From: Actinomycetaceae bacterium
GTDB taxonomy: Bacteria > Actinomycetota > Actinomycetes > Actinomycetales > Actinomycetaceae
Assembly: GCA_028724905.1 (NCBI GenBank)
Contig: JAQYTG010000005.1
Span: 1-64,000 of the forward strand
Direction of reading: 5' to 3'
Length of the DNA: 64,000 nt
Shown here: positions 22,760 to 29,093 of the stretch, piece by piece
Numbering within the stretch: the stretch's first letter is position 1
Layout: every line of letters starts with the position of its first letter
Position numbers and translations under genes: made by a program
The notes under the pieces: model-generated
Database searches by the model: none
Seen by the model: the letters and a program-made list of their open reading frames with translations, nothing else
What the model was told of the DNA's origin: nothing

Positions 22760-23242
22760 TTATGCTCGGTTCGCGCCGTTTTTTCGTTCTTCTCGCATTT
22801 GGTTTGCGTAGAACGCGAGCGAGGGTAGATAGACGACGTTGAATGGGAAGATGCTTCTTTCTGAGATATCGGCTTCCCACGTCTGCTTCTGGCCGTCCAC
22901 GTCCCAGCTAATGAGTGCGGTGCGGGATTTTTCTTTGACTTTAAAATCGCTCATGCTATCCCAGGGGTGAAGCTGAAGACGAGCTGTATCTGTGGGGGAG
23001 ATGGATGCTAGTTCGGTGACGCCGTCAGGGTTGATAACGTAGAGTCCGCTGTTGTTGGCCAGCAGTATTCGGATGCTGGCAGCGTCGCTTGCTGTTTCTT
23101 GGGTAGATGCTAGAAAGTGGCTTATTTTTCCCAGTAGCGTGCGGTGTTCTCGGGCGACGACGAAGTTTGATGCCGTCACGATGTCGTGACTCTTAGTGAA
23201 AGAGGCAATTTCTTCTTCGGAAATTTTTCGGATGATTCCCAT
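22760..23242 (-). CDS. Hypothetical protein, PH-like domain possible
   Basis: A 160-aa soluble protein (MGIIRKISEEEIASFTKSHDIVTASNFVVAREHRTLLGK...) with alternating strand-like segments such as SIRILLANNSGLYVINPDGVTELASISPTDTARLQLHPWD and RTALISWDVDGQKQTWEADIS. This resembles small bacterial PH-like domains that carry a LLxT-type strand pattern, but the match is by feel. The ATG at 23242 has AGGAA upstream. Its promoter region faces palindrome A (23312-23357), which lies 70-115 bases upstream of its start, so it might share the control of the peptide-kinase operon. Confidence 0.65.
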   Translation of the reverse strand: MGIIRKISEEEIASFTKSHDIVTASNFVVAREHRTLLGKISHFLASTQETASDAASIRILLANNSGLYVINPDGVTELASISPTDTARLQLHPWDSMSDFKVKEKSRTALISWDVDGQKQTWEADISERSIFPFNVVYLPSLAFYANQMREERKNGANRA

Positions 23243-23311
23243 AGCCGTTCCTGTTGATTGGTGTCGGTTGCATTCTGACGTATCGACGTTACCAAGAGCG
23301 GAGGGGCAATT

Positions 23312-23357
23312 GATACCGTCATGTGTCGGTATAAATTGACCGACACATGACGGTATC
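23312..23357. promoter_or_regulatory. Palindrome A: 19-8-19 inverted repeat, putative operator
   Basis: The left arm is GATACCGTCATGTGTCGGT, the loop is ATAAATTG and the right arm is the exact reverse complement. The 44-base core recurs unchanged at 25696-25739. Each arm is itself an imperfect dyad (ACCGnCAnnTGnCGGT within ACCGTCATGTGTCGGT), so two protein dimers could bind with centres 24 bp apart. It lies in a divergent intergenic region, where no transcript ends, so it cannot be a terminator of a preceding gene. A -10-like TATTCT (23378-23383) begins 20 nt after it and no good -35 is present. This suits activation from this site. The regulator is probably the response regulator at 24974. 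Confidence 0.8.
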
Positions 23358-23555
23358 GTGCGTGCTAGATTTTGCTCTATTCTGGCTTCATCGCGTGGAA
23401 ATAGGCGATTTTCGCTAGCGATATGGAGCCGCTGAAGCAGCGGGTACAGACGCAGACGTCTACTGTAGCGTTCGCATCACACTCAGCGGAGCCAATGAAT
23501 GGTAACTACGCTGAGCACTGTGCGGTGCTCGGTGTGGAGGAAAAGAGGGGGAATC

Positions 23556-23816
23556 ATGTATCGGGTATTCGTGCTGGTAACGGCGGTCTGTAGTGTGTTG
23601 ACTTGTGGTGTGCTGAAGCCGAGCTTTGCCGTGCCTGCTGAGGTGCAGAGGGCTGTGCGAGATTCGGTGCCTTATGCTGCTCGTGCGCTGCCTACCAGTG
23701 GTGTTGATGGTGGCAGTGTCAGTGAGTGGACACATGGGTCGATAAAGCTTGATGTGTCGTTAAGATGCCTTTTGACACCTCAAGATCCTGATTGTATTAA
23801 ACATCGTAAAGGCTAA
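23556..23816 (+). CDS. Small secreted peptide precursor, candidate signal peptide of the bacteriocin locus
   Basis: 86 aa from an ATG preceded by AGAGGGGG. The first 25 residues form a Sec signal (RVFVLVTAVCSVLTCGVLKPSFA), with a likely cut after SFA. The mature part is about 61 residues with two cysteines, in RCLLTPQDPDC, spaced to form a small loop. It does not match a family I know. It starts the unit that continues 7 bases later with the histidine kinase and response regulator, so it could be the ligand sensed by the kinase, a co-bacteriocin or an immunity factor. Function is inference only. Confidence 0.7.
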   Translation: MYRVFVLVTAVCSVLTCGVLKPSFAVPAEVQRAVRDSVPYAARALPTSGVDGGSVSEWTHGSIKLDVSLRCLLTPQDPDCIKHRKG

Positions 23817-23823
23817 TATGTAG

Positions 23824-24981
23824 ATGGGTATGTACCGTGCGCACGCAAAAATTTTCCCTATAGCGTCAACGACAGGTAAAAAGACGAGTGCTATGCATAA
23901 AGTAGTGTTTTGTGCTAGTGCCGTCTTGATTGTACTTGTGGAACTTCTAGATGATGTAGACCGAAGTTTTGCGCTATCAGCTCCGGAAAGCCTGGCGTTG
24001 TGCTTACTTGGAGTGTTGCTGGCGGCCGGTGCATTTTTTCCCGTTGCCTCGGGGCTGCTGTACATTGCGTTGCTGGTGTGGACTTCTGTTTTTGGTGATA
24101 TCTTTGCTTTTCCCATTTTAGGGTTGTATTTGATCGTGGGCGCGTGGATTCTCAGTTCTCGCACCATACTTGCCATCATCGTGCTAGCGCTGACGGAAAC
24201 AATCTGGATCGTGCTATCGCCGGTGCACGTGTCGCAGGCAGTTAGCGCTCTGGTGGGCAGCGGTATTACGCTCGCTGTGAGTTTTATGCTGCGACTGTGG
24301 AAAATGAAAAACGCTCAAGCAGCTTCTGAAGCTCAGCAGGCTCGAGAGCAAGCTGCGCAGGCCAGTATGACGGTGCGCAGGCAGCTCGCTCAAGAGCTTC
24401 ACGATACGATTGCCAAAGATCTGGCTCGCATAGCCCTCATGGCTCAGGAATTCAAGGCGGCGGGGAGTGTGAGCGCCGATGAGCTGGGTGCGCTGGCTGA
24501 TATGGCTGCAGCTGCCTCGCGCCGCATTCGTCCCACGATTATGGATTTGGATAGGGCGAGCTACAGGGAGAGTGCGTCGCAGACGATCTCGTTGGTGGTC
24601 AAAATGCTCTCCACTCGTGCTATTGAGTTGGATGTGTCTGCGGCTGCTGATATGGATGAACTGTTTGAACGTGAGCAGATCTTGGTACTAACGACTGTCA
24701 TTCGAGAGGGAGCGACGAACATTTTGAAGTATGCTCCAGCTGGTTCCCAGGCGAGTCTTACGTGCGGCATTGATGAGAAAGGATCGGCTATTACTGTGAG
24801 TATGGGCAACGATATTGCCGATGAAATCAATACAGACGTGACTGGAGGGTTTGGGCTGGCCAACTTAGAGCAGCAGGTAGCCAGTGTGGGTGGAGAGCTC
24901 TCTTACGGGAGCTTTGAGAAACGCTGGATTTTGTATGCCACTATCCCGTTGAGCGAAAAAGAGGGAGCGGAAAATGAGTGA
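23824..24981 (+). CDS. Sensor histidine kinase, NarL/LuxR-partner type (HisKA_3)
   Basis: A membrane-bound kinase of 385 aa. The N-terminal half has about five or six hydrophobic helices (~residues 25-157) and no large extracellular domain, as in peptide-sensing or bacteriocin-linked kinases. Dimerisation/phospho-acceptor helix RRQLAQELHDTIAKDLARIAL (His in ELHD, ~residue 197). Catalytic domain has REGATNILKYA (N box) and GGFGLANLEQQV (G box). ATG at 23824 or 23830. It overlaps the response regulator by 8 bases, so the two are translated together. It probably senses the peptide encoded just upstream. Confidence 0.92.
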   Translation: MGMYRAHAKIFPIASTTGKKTSAMHKVVFCASAVLIVLVELLDDVDRSFALSAPESLALCLLGVLLAAGAFFPVASGLLYIALLVWTSVFGDIFAFPILGLYLIVGAWILSSRTILAIIVLALTETIWIVLSPVHVSQAVSALVGSGITLAVSFMLRLWKMKNAQAASEAQQAREQAAQASMTVRRQLAQELHDTIAKDLARIALMAQEFKAAGSVSADELGALADMAAAASRRIRPTIMDLDRASYRESASQTISLVVKMLSTRAIELDVSAAADMDELFEREQILVLTTVIREGATNILKYAPAGSQASLTCGIDEKGSAITVSMGNDIADEINTDVTGGFGLANLEQQVASVGGELSYGSFEKRWILYATIPLSEKEGAENE

Positions 24982-25639
24982 AGAAATTCGGATACTTATC
25001 GCCGATGATGACGAGATAATCCGAGATGCTCTGTCTAATCTTCTGAATTGTGAAGAAGGAATGAAGGTAGTAACGGCAGTAGCTGATGGAGTGCAGGCTC
25101 TTAAAGAAATGAGGGAGCATATCATAGATGTGGCACTCATTGATGTGGATATGCCGGTGTTAGATGGAATCAAGACGGCGAGCATCATAAGGCAGACGTA
25201 TCCAGATGTGACGGTGGTGATGCTCACCGCTTTTGAGCAGGAGGGGTCTTTTGAACAAGCTGTTGCCCAAGGGGTGCACGGTTTTCTCACCAAAGACATT
25301 CCAGCTCCGCAGCTTGCTGAGCTTATTAGGCAAGCTCACTCTGGGCGGGTAGTTATGGGGCCGCGTCCTATGGAAATTCTTACTCAGGCCTACGCGGCAA
25401 CGGCGTACAACAAAGTTCGCTACGCTACGTTCGTCGCTGACGTAGAGGCTTTGCCGACTCATCTGAGGTCTACTTTTGATCTTCTTTTGGAAGCGCGCAC
25501 AAACAAGGAAATTGCTGAAATTTTACACATGAGCCCGAAGACGATTCGCTCCTACGTTTCAGATATCCTCACCCGCACGGGTTTTTCTAGCAGGGGAGAG
25601 CTCGCTATTGCGGCTGTGAGAGCAGGCCTTGATCGGTAG
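24974..25639 (+). CDS. Response regulator, REC plus LuxR-type HTH (NarL/FixJ family)
   Basis: 221 aa. The receiver domain has the acidic pair in LIADDDE, phospho-acceptor D57 in ALIDVDMP, switch Thr in VVMLTAF and Lys in FLTKDIP. The C-terminal LuxR helix-turn-helix (LLLEARTNKEIAEILHMSPKTIRSYVSDILTRTGFSSRGELAIAAV) reads DNA. It is the cognate partner of the overlapping kinase. The only duplicated, promoter-linked palindromes nearby are A and B, upstream of its own operon and of the bacteriocin operon, so I infer that it binds both and drives a feed-forward loop. Confidence 0.94.
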   Translation: MSEEIRILIADDDEIIRDALSNLLNCEEGMKVVTAVADGVQALKEMREHIIDVALIDVDMPVLDGIKTASIIRQTYPDVTVVMLTAFEQEGSFEQAVAQGVHGFLTKDIPAPQLAELIRQAHSGRVVMGPRPMEILTQAYAATAYNKVRYATFVADVEALPTHLRSTFDLLLEARTNKEIAEILHMSPKTIRSYVSDILTRTGFSSRGELAIAAVRAGLDR

Positions 25640-25694
25640 CACAGATGCTGATAGTGGGGAGACTCAGCCATCACCGCAACGTAGTAGAGCCAGA

Positions 25695-25740
25695 TATACC
25701 GTCATGTGTCGGTATAAATTGACCGACACATGACGGTATA
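25695..25740. promoter_or_regulatory. Palindrome B: 19-8-19 inverted repeat, putative operator of the bacteriocin operon
   Basis: The arm is TATACCGTCATGTGTCGGT, the loop is ATAAATTG and the second arm is the exact reverse complement. It is identical to palindrome A over 44 bases. It begins 55 bases after the response regulator stop and ends 128 bases before the bacteriocin start. A -10-like TCTAAT (25761-25766) begins 20 nt after the palindrome, the same spacing as at palindrome A. Confidence 0.82.
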
Positions 25741-25770
25741 CAGGAGAGCATTTCGTCGTATCTAATAGTT

Positions 25771-25799
25771 GTAGGCACCGTTTCGGGGGCGGTGCCTAC
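25771..25799 (+). promoter_or_regulatory. GC-rich hairpin at the predicted 5' end of the bacteriocin mRNA
   Basis: A 10-bp perfect stem GTAGGCACCG / CGGTGCCTAC (25771-25780 with 25790-25799) and a 9-nt loop, with no T-run after it. If transcription starts about 7 nt after the TCTAAT hexamer, this stem sits at the very 5' end of the transcript, where it would protect the message. Alternatively it is a weak terminator for the response regulator message. It shares the GGCACCG/CGGTGCC core with the ssrA terminator. Confidence 0.6.
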
Positions 25800-25824
25800 G
25801 CAGATAAAATGCGTCCAATGGATA

Positions 25825-25850
25825 TTGGTCAATGGTTCGCAATTGACCAA
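25825..25850 (+). promoter_or_regulatory. 9-8-9 dyad just before the bacteriocin ribosome binding site
   Basis: TTGGTCAAT, loop GGTTCGCA, ATTGACCAA. It ends 6 bases before the AAGGAG that serves the bacteriocin gene. AATTGACCAACCAATG resembles AATTGACCGACACATG in palindromes A and B. It could be a second operator or a leader stem affecting translation. Confidence 0.55.
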
Positions 25851-25868
25851 CCAATGAAGGAGAATACT

Positions 25869-26165
25869 ATGAAAAATGGTATAAAGAAAATCCTGGCAGC
25901 TGGCTGTGTATGTGCTTCGTTGCTCGGAGTAGGAGCCGGTGCTGCCTATGCAGATACTGTCTATTACAAAGGTAGCGCAGTTGCCTGGGATCACGGTCGC
26001 TGGGCTGGCCTCTGGAGTTTTTCGGACGTCCAGTCCACCGTCTATGAACATTCAGCCACCGCTAATACGACCTCTTCTGGATGGCAACAGCCTGGTGTGA
26101 AGGCCAGCGCTAAACAGTTTGTTGGCCCAGGTAAAGCCACGGCCTACTGGAATTGTCGCGGATAG
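25869..26165 (+). CDS. Lactococcin 972-family bacteriocin precursor
   Basis: 98 aa. A Sec signal (MKNGIKKILAAGCVCASLL...GAAYA) is cut before DTVYY, leaving a mature protein of 70 residues. The mature part shows the lactococcin 972 pattern: Trp/Gly-rich start (VAWDHGRWAGLWSFSD), the VYEHSATA block, SGW...GVKASAKQF, then GPGKATAYWNC at the C-terminus. Family members are unmodified secreted proteins; lactococcin 972 itself blocks septum formation through lipid II. Strong AAGGAG before the ATG at 25869. It is first in a three-gene operon with its membrane protein and ABC ATPase. Confidence 0.92.
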   Translation: MKNGIKKILAAGCVCASLLGVGAGAAYADTVYYKGSAVAWDHGRWAGLWSFSDVQSTVYEHSATANTTSSGWQQPGVKASAKQFVGPGKATAYWNCRG

Positions 26166-26213
26166 TCCTAGAAGTAGGAGATAAAGAAGAGTGCGTCGTC
26201 ATGGTGGTGTGAT

Positions 26214-28409
26214 ATGTCAAAAGTAATACGTGTACTGGTGTTGATTATGTTTGCACTGATATCTGTGACATCAGGTGTACAGGGGTTATCCGTGATAGGC
26301 GATCGCTATACAGATGCTGTGCAATCATATCCGACGACAGGCTCGCAGTTCTTTCTGGGCGATGTCTCGGACGATATGAGCGCCGAGGTGCAGGCAACTC
26401 TCGTTAAGTATACGGATCGCTACGGTGCCGTTATCTTCCGTCGTGACGACATTCTCTCCCAAGCTGACGGCTCCGTGGAAGGAGCTCGCTTTGGTGTATA
26501 TGGCGATGTCAAGAAGCAGGCAGACAGCTTGGAGCTGTCTTTTGTAGGTATTCGGCTGCTAGATAGCGATAAACTCTCGCTGCTCCTATCATCAGATCCG
26601 AAGAGTACCCTCGGCCTTGATATGAACAGCGCGGATATGATAGCAGATGTCCCAAGCGTCCGATTTTTTTCTCGACTGACCGTCATGCAGCTACAGCGGC
26701 TGATAGACGATTCTGGTACGGTGAATGGTGCATACACCGTTGTGGGTCTTTCTCCCGATCAATTTCAGGAGCTACTAGCTCAGCTCAGTGAACAAACGGG
26801 CATCAGCACGGAGAGATTATTGCATCCACTGGGCGGGGTATTCAGTTATGACTTCTATGTCGCTCACTACGCTACAGTTTTTGGGCTAGGAGCCGTCGTC
26901 TTCACGGCACTGATCGTCTTTCTGGCCGCCTTTTTAGGCGTGAATCGGTATGGAATCTATCTGCTTCTTGGATGGTCGAAGTGGGCCTATATCGCCAAGC
27001 TCAATCTTCCCTTCGTGCTAGGCGCCCTGGCAATATCGCTGATTCCTGCAGGAATAATAATCGGGGGTATTTCTGGAGCTGGGCTTACTATGCAGCTTGC
27101 TGGCGTAGTCGCAGTCCAGATGCTCAAATTCCTCTTTCTCGCCTTCCTCACTTTAGTGCCTGGCGCTCTAGCGTTGGCTCTTATCAAGCCGGTTGCGGCC
27201 ATTCGCAATCAAGTTTCTCGAAAAGCGTTGCTTGCCCTGATGCTGATTCTTTTCACGGGCTCGTCCGTCGGGGCGGTTGGAGCTTTCTATTCGGTGGATG
27301 GGCCGTTGCAAGAAATGCGGGAAATGCAGGAAATCCACAATCAGTGGGCTAAATATGGTGATTATGAAATCCTTTATAGAGAATATGTGGGCGATGATTC
27401 CAACAGCTTCACAGGGCAGAGCAGCGAGCATATCGCTGATGTGTATGCGTGGTATGCCTCGATTGAGGATAAACCTGGTGTGAATCTTGCTCATACGGTG
27501 TTTTATAGCGGTGATGTTTTGCAAAAGTGGCAGGGTGCCTTTTCTGCCGTGCCCTCCAAACCTTTTTGGTATATGGCAGCATCTGCTTCGTATCTGCGCA
27601 GTATTAACTTTGCCCTGCCTGAGCGCGATGCCCAGCTGGCACAAGAGGGGGTGCGTATCTATTATGTGCCTGATACTCTGAGCGGCCATGACCGCGAGTC
27701 TCTCGAAGCCTGGCTGCGCGAAGATGCGCTAAAAGATCGAGGCGATTCCATCGTGACGGCCTTTATGAAAAATCCTAGGATTGAGTTTCGCTCGTACACG
27801 CCCTCAGATCAGATATTTATGTGGAATGCCGATCTTTCCTACGATTTCCAAGTGTCAGATCCGGTGATTTATCTAGCAGCGGCTGCCAATATGACGCCTT
27901 TTGAATCGGAAAGCTTGAATGCAGTCGGATTGCAGGCGAACTATATTAAGCTCTCGGCCAGTGCGGCAGATCGCTATGTCAGTCCCAGCTATTTAGCTAC
28001 GTACCACCTCGATGATAACTCGCCGGAATTTCGCTCAGTGGGTGACTTCATCGCTGGGCTGCGTAAAAGCATCATGGAGTTTATCGTACTCTTTGGGGTA
28101 GTAGGCGTTTTCATCGTCGCACTAGAGCTCGCCTTACTGATGGTCATCGTCTCGCTCTATGCAAAAGTCTATGCTCAACAAGTGGCCATCAAACGGCTAC
28201 TGGGATATCCGCTGTACTCGATTTTCGCGCTTCCATGTGCGTTTGTGGCCGTGGTGAGCGTGGGGAGCTTCCTACTTGCCTTGATCCTAGGATCGAACAG
28301 CGCCATCCTCGTCTCCGGCGTCTTGATACTCGTTCAGCTGCTCCTCTTAGCCTGGCAGTCCAGGCGTTTAGCCACGAAACAAGTAGCCATTACCGTGAAA
28401 GAACAATAG
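26214..28409 (+). CDS. Bacteriocin-associated integral membrane protein (DUF1430 type)
   Basis: 731 aa. An N-terminal membrane anchor (VIRVLVLIMFALISVTSGVQG), a large extracytoplasmic domain, a central bundle of helices (~residues 218-360), a second extracytoplasmic domain and a C-terminal helix bundle (~620-715). This is the layout of the large membrane protein that accompanies lactococcin 972-type precursors, with FtsX-like topology. It forms an ABC complex with the ATPase encoded 15 bases downstream, for export or self-immunity. The family name is assigned by size, topology and context. Confidence 0.88.
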   Translation: MSKVIRVLVLIMFALISVTSGVQGLSVIGDRYTDAVQSYPTTGSQFFLGDVSDDMSAEVQATLVKYTDRYGAVIFRRDDILSQADGSVEGARFGVYGDVKKQADSLELSFVGIRLLDSDKLSLLLSSDPKSTLGLDMNSADMIADVPSVRFFSRLTVMQLQRLIDDSGTVNGAYTVVGLSPDQFQELLAQLSEQTGISTERLLHPLGGVFSYDFYVAHYATVFGLGAVVFTALIVFLAAFLGVNRYGIYLLLGWSKWAYIAKLNLPFVLGALAISLIPAGIIIGGISGAGLTMQLAGVVAVQMLKFLFLAFLTLVPGALALALIKPVAAIRNQVSRKALLALMLILFTGSSVGAVGAFYSVDGPLQEMREMQEIHNQWAKYGDYEILYREYVGDDSNSFTGQSSEHIADVYAWYASIEDKPGVNLAHTVFYSGDVLQKWQGAFSAVPSKPFWYMAASASYLRSINFALPERDAQLAQEGVRIYYVPDTLSGHDRESLEAWLREDALKDRGDSIVTAFMKNPRIEFRSYTPSDQIFMWNADLSYDFQVSDPVIYLAAAANMTPFESESLNAVGLQANYIKLSASAADRYVSPSYLATYHLDDNSPEFRSVGDFIAGLRKSIMEFIVLFGVVGVFIVALELALLMVIVSLYAKVYAQQVAIKRLLGYPLYSIFALPCAFVAVVSVGSFLLALILGSNSAILVSGVLILVQLLLLAWQSRRLATKQVAITVKEQ

Positions 28410-28424
28410 AAGAAAAGAGCTAGT

Positions 28425-29093
28425 ATGTCTACCATTCTTTCCATCGCAAACGTTAGCAAAGTCTATGGCAGTCGCACGATCCTTGCAGGGATTAATTTTT
28501 CGCTAGCGCAGCGGGAGAGCCTTGCTATCACTGGCCCCTCGGGGTGTGGAAAAAGCACGCTGCTCAACATCATTGGCTTGCTAGAGAGCCCCACCAGTGG
28601 AGAGCTGTCTATTGGTGGAATCTCCTATCCTGCCATCAATTCTGGCAAAGCAGCGCTCATTCGGCGCACGATGATTTCGTATCTGTTTCAGTCGTATGCA
28701 CTCATTCAATCCCAGACGGCTATCGACAACGTGCTGCTAGGGATGAAATACGCTGAGGGGAATCGGAGAGAGAAAACTCGACGCGCGGAACAGTTGCTAG
28801 CGCGCCTTGGGCTGGCGCACGTAATGCGCGATCAGGTTTTCACGCTCTCTGGTGGAGAGCAGCAGCGGGTGGCGCTGGCTCGGTGTATTTTGAAGCCAGG
28901 TCAGCTGATTCTGGCTGATGAACCTACTGGTGCTCTCGATCCGCAGCTAGCCAACAGCGTGCTGCATGAGATACTCCAACTTCAGCACGAGTATGGTAAA
29001 TCGCTGATCGTCGTCACCCACGATCGCCACGTGGCTCAGGCTTGCGATTATCAATTACAGCTCCCAGATCGCCGTCACAAACAAGATGATTAA
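28425..29093 (+). CDS. ABC transporter ATP-binding protein of the bacteriocin system
   Basis: 222 aa, MacB/LolD-like. Walker A GPSGCGKSTLL, Q-loop SYLFQSYAL, signature LSGGEQQRVALARC, Walker B LILADEPTGALD, switch His in VTHDRHVAQAC. It couples ATP hydrolysis to the membrane protein encoded just upstream. Lactococcin 972-group loci nearly always end with such an ATPase. The gene is convergent with lexA; the 215 bases between hold no gene and no clear terminator. Confidence 0.94.
   Translation: MSTILSIANVSKVYGSRTILAGINFSLAQRESLAITGPSGCGKSTLLNIIGLLESPTSGELSIGGISYPAINSGKAALIRRTMISYLFQSYALIQSQTAIDNVLLGMKYAEGNRREKTRRAEQLLARLGLAHVMRDQVFTLSGGEQQRVALARCILKPGQLILADEPTGALDPQLANSVLHEILQLQHEYGKSLIVVTHDRHVAQACDYQLQLPDRRHKQDD

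Follow-up and report, generated by a model that had tools for sequence, protein, structure and literature searches.

What switches on a lactococcin-972-like bacteriocin in an actinobacterium, and is it the peptide, kinase and regulator encoded directly upstream? The question is raised by a locus of an Actinomycetaceae bacterium (assembly GCA_028724905.1, contig JAQYTG010000005.1) that occupies positions 22760–29093 of the 64,000-nucleotide stretch analysed here (the window); the host draft genome amounts to 2.06 Mb in 23 contigs. Judged by comparison with its relatives, the locus is a real and coherent regulatory unit. Directly apparent from the sequence are its genes, two palindromes, an equal spacing from each palindrome to a −10-like hexamer, peptide–kinase–regulator modules that recur in other genomes, some with related dyads, and a further two modules linked to a bacteriocin cassette. 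In the reading that we consider probable, the peptide, which ends in a cysteine-bounded loop, would be the signal and the kinase its sensor, and the regulator in its phosphorylated form would bind to both palindromes, near −42, and activate the two units.

The locus and its two palindromes

Two predicted units follow one another on the forward strand, each behind the same palindrome (palindrome 1, 23313–23356; palindrome 2, 25696–25739, the likely operator of the bacteriocin cassette). The two 44-nucleotide copies are exactly identical, as the first-pass annotation of this DNA had stated, and 0 matches were obtained in each of 100 shuffles; 38 of the 44 positions are self-complementary. Each 44-mer consists of two tandem dyads of the form ACCG-N8-CGGT, 24 bp apart (ACCGTCATGTGTCGGT and ACCGACACATGACGGT), and the same or related dyads are found before relatives, which makes palindrome 1 a likely operator as well. 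The next −10-like hexamer, predicted to be TATTCT (23378–23383) for the peptide–kinase–regulator unit and TCTAAT (25761–25766) for the cassette, lies at +23 from the proximal dyad in both cases; the equality of spacing claimed earlier is confirmed, with a count of 21 intervening nucleotides instead of 20.

The first unit encodes an 86-residue secreted-type peptide precursor (23556–23816), the predicted pheromone, which ends in CLLTPQDPDCIKHRKG with a C-x8-C loop; a membrane histidine kinase (23824–24981), the likely peptide receptor, with several hydrophobic segments in a hydropathy scan (residues 21–158) and an HisKA_3 score of 23.1 bits against the Pfam cut-off of 24; and a response regulator (24974–25639) with a receiver and a LuxR-type (GerE) helix-turn-helix domain (PF00196, 31.9 bits), the recognition helix of which reads MSPKTIRSYV. 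The LytTR output domain by which three-component systems are recognized was not among the matches listed for the regulator. The second unit encodes a lactococcin-972-like precursor of 98 residues with a Sec-like leader (25869–26165), a bacteriocin-associated integral membrane protein (26214–28409) and an ABC ATPase (28425–29093). For the precursor, a start at 25869, behind AAGGAG, seems more likely than one at 25809. All genes previously ascribed to the two units were found.

The host genome holds three exact copies of the 40-nucleotide core of the palindrome, plus a degenerate fourth, and in the window the two palindromes are the only places with dyads of at least 11 of 12 matches. The possibility that the operator is a genome-scattered repeat element was rejected on the three exact copies in 2.06 Mb; the concern that it might be scattered at unrelated genes is removed to that extent, but one copy does lie at DsrE-family and aldehyde dehydrogenase genes. 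Half-sites with up to three mismatches numbered 8 forward and 6 reverse, not above the 10 and 10 of a reversed-pattern control, and loose operator patterns with three mismatches were at chance level. A terminator was likewise discarded as an explanation of the palindrome, which is not followed by a T-run, and so was a plasmid-borne locus, the plasmid collection giving no match at the megablast level. The degenerate copy (L010:3380–3424/L134:7380–7424, contig C19) stands before a short signal-peptide-like gene that ends early and is apparently a decayed output.

Seven genes in all lie between a helicase gene, presumably of the DinG type, and lexA. The remaining one, a divergent gene of 160 residues on the reverse strand (22760–23242), matches no family above cut-off, and no relative of it was found by tblastn in the fetched loci. 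Palindrome 1 lies 70 nt upstream of this gene, on whose strand a −10-like TAACGT stands at +23 from the dyad; palindrome 1 may therefore fire both ways, and the gene may be co-regulated from it.

Loop peptides, kinases and operators in related genomes

Kinase matches at E ≤ 1e-3, many of them distant, were obtained in 138 of 200 genomes from the family, a set that includes the window's. Directly upstream of many of the closest kinases is a short gene for a protein with a hydrophobic N-terminus and a C-terminal loop: CLLTPQDPDC in the window, CNFFPNLPGC in a second module of the host, CFFIPSSPDC in Mobiluncus mulieris and, for example, CKLFPNLRGC and CRVFPNLPIC in others. An upstream open reading frame (ORF) ending in exact C-x8-C is present at 23 of 40 kinase loci, compared with 0 of 40 in antisense and 33 of 1600 shuffles (2%), so that a dedicated peptide gene conserved beside kinase and regulator, the mark of three-component quorum sensing, was found at these 23. 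The 40 loci comprise 29 of the 30 from the kinase search (that of M. mulieris being swapped for a longer copy), the second module of the host, two loci linked to a cassette and 7 taken from the 21 best named loci; of the other 14 named loci, 13 were left out as copies of included loci (same regulator sequence or contig) and L074 because it starts at the locus edge. Many loci are related and the counts are not independent; at 60% identity the 40 loci form 28 clusters, 17 with a peptide. Allowing spacings of 5–12 between the cysteines added only four loci (two with C-x10-C, one with C-x8-C plus a third cysteine and one apparently spurious), which makes C-x8-C the rule. Among 56 more distant kinases (56 of the 58 remaining loci, L095 and L124 beginning near an edge) we found 0 peptides and 0 dyads, in genomes that are often more GC-rich, a composition that may lower the count.

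Of the 23 peptides, picked by their cysteine pair, 20 were aligned, and at least 90% of these have a proline four residues after the first cysteine, which was not a selection criterion. The aligned peptides share 11–26% identity with that of the window and keep one loop spacing. By eye the peptide N-termini are Sec-signal-like; GG is present in some, including the window's, and a family scan found no peptidase-bearing exporter among the seven locus genes. Pfam and NCBIfam contain no convincing model for the loop peptide (single weak matches, of which the best, at E 0.0082, is to a model of a Cys-rich leader peptide); 13 entries came back when a large protein database was searched with the profile, the window's own included, none with a named function. 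On this showing the loop-peptide family looks new. Mobiluncus curtisii has a seemingly decayed peptide gene that still encodes the loop end.

The exact 40-nucleotide core is confined to 2 of the 200 genomes, with three copies in the host and one in M. mulieris, where it lies directly between a related peptide–kinase pair and the gene of a secreted C39-like protein (C39 match of 21.8 bits, below the cut-off of 24). M. curtisii carries ATCGTCAGGTGTCGGT and ACCGACACCTGACGAT upstream of its kinase, and ACCGAC-N4-GTCGGT dyads occur in other genera, partly in tandem at 23 bp. Strict ACCG-N8-CGGT dyads were found upstream in 13 of the 40 kinase loci, five of which have two. Across 30 longer loci (535,561 bases, some overlapping) the dyads with at least 11 of 12 matches lie nearly all at modules or secreted-protein genes; they stand before modules, behind an Actinotignum regulator, before a secreted protein of genome G130 and at the unlinked third site. 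One is located 1.5 kb upstream of an M. mulieris kinase. As a candidate for a common operator of the loci without dyads we considered perfect 16-mers with 6+6 arms, which are present in 10 of 22 such loci; only L146 has TAnnnT at +22, and the candidate was rejected. The strict scan misses the dyads of the window too.

Ten of 25 promoters have a TAnnnT that begins 22 or 23 nt behind the proximal dyad; in 2000 single-base shuffles the average was 0.9 and the highest count 5, and no other offset pair exceeds 2. These promoters were picked from the operators found, after the spacing had been noticed in several, and the dyads of L147 were picked by eye. With such a spacing the dyad would be centred near −42, where class II activators usually sit. 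In what is a small sample, the recognition helix of the regulator and the operator dyad appear to change together. The two loci with a CGTC-type dyad and a readable regulator have the helices MSPKT (window) and MSPAT (M. curtisii), and SP is found in the helix of 0 of 10 regulators from loci with a CGAC-type dyad; the helix of M. mulieris falls in a masked stretch and was left out.

The second module of the host (L046:7568–10864, contig C2; dyad ACCGACATTCGTCGGT) has genes for a 228-residue secreted protein and a small membrane protein facing those of the loop peptide, kinase and regulator. The 228-residue protein is related to the protein behind the G130 operator, and secreted proteins of about 215–230 residues (L047:2070–2717, L046:7920–8606 and L072:5344–6754) are related by tblastn, two of them being encoded behind or opposite operators. 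The two of these that were scanned have no Pfam match; the family could be one of bacteriocins. The 2.4-Mb genome of one M. mulieris (G092) has 10 kinase matches (E ≤ 1e-3) and 15 regulator matches (E ≤ 1e-15), which suggests many parallel channels, and contains a seemingly broken duplicate module near an intact one.

The bacteriocin cassette and its pairing with modules

The precursor is called lactococcin-972-like here, and is not filed as a member of the family, because its TIGR01653 score is 13.8 bits against a curated 32.1 (E 0.054), its best structural match has an E value of 0.2 and its profile match is weak. The predicted model (pLDDT 87.4) is a β-sandwich, the fold of mature lactococcin 972 (Lcn972), and the top Foldseek match in the PDB is lactococcin 972 itself (2LGN; probability 0.99, target TM 0.67, 26% identity), but with that E value of 0.2. 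Profile comparison gave 37% identity over 46 columns, but its probability was low, at 17, and searching the PDB with a sequence profile of the precursor gave no match. A database search returned 45 proteins at E ≤ 0.01, the window's own included, two of which are named lactococcin 972 family by their source. Of 18 aligned members, 17 match TIGR01653 at E ≤ 1 (best 7.5e-5), again including that of the window, and four match PF09683, the window's precursor not among them. The predicted mature bacteriocin has a single cysteine (tail WNCRG), which is unusual for a secreted protein; it is kept in 12 of 14 sequences, two with a second cysteine.

The order precursor–membrane protein–ATPase is that of the lactococcin 972 operon. 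TIGR01654 is the best match of the membrane protein (55.9 of 189.35 bits), which also has a DUF1430-like end below cut-off, and TIGR03608, a model of the lactococcin 972 group, is the best NCBIfam match of the ATPase (221 of 254.85 bits); both TIGR scores are below cut-off.

Lactococcin-972-like precursors were found at eight places in 7 of the 200 genomes, and a module lies within about 5 kb of the precursor at three of these places, the window included. The other two are in genomes G078 and G128, of one genus, where a kinase and regulator of the window's kinase family stand beside a complete cassette, and a variant dyad, ACCTACAAATGTAGGT, or a by-eye diverged form of it, precedes peptide and precursor. 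The proposed control of lactococcin-972-like genes by peptide, kinase and regulator thereby gains from comparison: modules recur, some with the same dyads and geometry, and two more are linked to a cassette. The search of related genomes proposed earlier bears out the pairing of module and cassette, in two genomes, there with the variant dyad. A class-wide survey of precursors in 394 genomes, in which at most 12 candidates per genome were scored, returned the window's own match only and is uninformative. Beside the G128 cassette (L147:12350–13765) we noticed a gene that is transposase-like by eye, followed by a second, 95% identical 176-nucleotide copy of the regulator end.

Alternative explanations, known systems and significance

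In the peptide-signalling reading that we favour, the 86-residue peptide would be exported by Sec, its C-x8-C loop closed by a disulfide and the product perhaps trimmed. The kinase would then bind or otherwise sense the loop peptide, and the regulator, once phosphorylated, would bind the tandem dyads near −42 and raise module and bacteriocin together in a positive feedback, possibly along with the divergent 160-residue gene. A number of observations weigh against this account. The exact C-x8-C ORF is missing at 17 of the 40 kinase loci and strict dyads at 27. The looser tandem pattern occurs in 9 of 200 genomes, compared with 2 for a reversed control; six of the nine have AT-rich module-type sequences and three appear to be chance occurrences in GC-rich DNA. 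The bacteriocin promoter itself has TCTAAT (5 of 6 positions of TATAAT) at +23, not TAnnnT. The cassette-linked modules of G078 and G128 have C-x10-C peptides besides their different dyad, and no module was seen at the other five of the eight precursor places in the fetched stretch, which in one case breaks off at a contig edge shortly before the precursor. Genome G130, of the same genus, has a CGTC-type operator before a 215-residue secreted protein while its three closest regulators lack SP, which either speaks against a simple helix–dyad code or means that the matching regulator is missing from the draft. Finally, the third perfect core copy of the host (L009:7096–7135, contig C16) lies between DsrE-family and aldehyde dehydrogenase genes and has no TAnnnT at +22 or +23 in either direction. 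This copy speaks against the self-contained regulon of the first-pass annotation; either the regulon extends beyond the bacteriocin, or this third copy is inactive, or the site has another function.

Some of these points would be accommodated by other explanations. A LuxR-type regulator with an HisKA_3 kinase, as found at this locus, is also the combination of the Lia and Vra systems, and the kinase might sense wall damage or the bacteriocin itself in the manner of LiaSR/VraSR, the small secreted protein being an accessory or modulator and not the signal. The 17 loci without an exact C-x8-C ORF fit such envelope-stress control, and so does the binding of lipid II by Lcn972 reported in one study (PMC9964109), given which a wall-stress cue would make sense. 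We nevertheless regard it as unlikely: the peptides have diverged to 11–26% identity to that of the window yet retain a single loop spacing, as private signals would be expected to, modules also adjoin unrelated outputs, and no LiaF-like partner, by which LiaFSR/VraSR systems would be recognized, was matched among the seven genes examined, the rest of the genome not having been searched. The third palindrome copy and the G130 operator without a matching helix would both be expected if the palindrome were the site of another regulator, encoded elsewhere, and the kinase–regulator pair acted on other targets; dyads directly upstream of the module in several genera, and the agreement of dyad type and helix in both readable CGTC-type loci and in all 10 readable CGAC-type loci, several of them close relatives, render this quite improbable. 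Since the loop peptide is of a secreted type and shares its operator with the bacteriocin unit, it could also be made alongside the lactococcin-972-like protein as an antimicrobial or an immunity factor, the signal being something else. This has very little probability in our view, as the gene stays beside the kinase in many loci where no cassette was found and is absent from the 56 more distant kinases.

The arrangement of peptide, kinase, regulator and bacteriocin is in itself already known. In class II bacteriocin regulation the peptide, histidine kinase and response regulator are encoded in one operon and a shared operator precedes the bacteriocin operon, as is predicted for the window; the class II systems have a double-glycine leader, a LytTR regulator and direct repeats, whereas the window has a leader that is Sec-like by eye, a GerE/LuxR regulator and tandem inverted dyads. 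Agr-type autoinducing peptides are small ring-shaped signals, closed by a thiolactone, that act through a membrane kinase; a small ring and a membrane kinase are likewise what we propose, but with two conserved cysteines and a predicted disulfide in place of the thiolactone. No AgrB-like protein, the mark of an Agr system, was matched among the seven locus genes, the rest of the genome not having been searched. What appears to be new is the family of loop peptides, together with the LuxR-type output, an operator built of tandem dyads and the repeated pairing with lactococcin-972-like cassettes.

The closest precedent is pneumococcal streptococcin B (scbABC), which is likewise lactococcin-972-like and has both a ComE site and a ComR/XIP route (PMC11796350). 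There too a lactococcin-972-like precursor with predicted immunity and transporter genes is under peptide quorum sensing, with a regulator site in the promoter; the pneumococcal site is that of the competence regulon (ComE) or of a ComR-type regulator that has a peptide of its own, whereas the locus in the window itself encodes a loop peptide predicted to be extracellular, together with a kinase and a LuxR-type regulator. The earlier view that a dedicated peptide with two-component control is not a described standard for the lactococcin 972 family must be qualified by this precedent, from which the dedicated loop-peptide route nonetheless differs. PloS/PloR of Trueperella pyogenes, from the same bacterial family, also combines a kinase with a LuxR-type regulator, a likeness by description; acyl-homoserine lactones are reported as its inhibitors, and, unlike in the window, no loop peptide is mentioned in the accessible part of its description (PMC6600626). 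The top results listed in a literature search, with most subscription journals outside its coverage, included no description of such a module in Actinomycetaceae. According to a 2016 review, quorum sensing had been reported in 25 of 342 actinobacterial genera, with experiments in nine, and the words Mobiluncus and Arcanobacterium are absent from its main text (PMC4748050).

A broader proposal, which we put at about an even chance, is that the Actinomycetaceae signal through an undescribed family of pheromones (C-x3-P-x4-C) that are exported by Sec and closed into a disulfide loop, every one of them served by its own kinase and LuxR-type regulator; copies are also found in one Canibacter genome and in a metagenome-assembled genome of Cutibacterium. 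Where a genome has several paralogous channels, paired changes of loop, helix and dyad would insulate them from one another, and lactococcin-972-like and other secreted effectors would have been captured repeatedly as outputs. If this is true, Mobiluncus, Arcanobacterium, Actinotignum and relatives would possess a loop-peptide family of which the signal, the receptor and, to some extent, the operator can be predicted. Short synthetic peptides would then allow a direct test of signalling between cells of these mucosal bacteria, and we would learn when at least some lactococcin-972-like bacteriocins are made.

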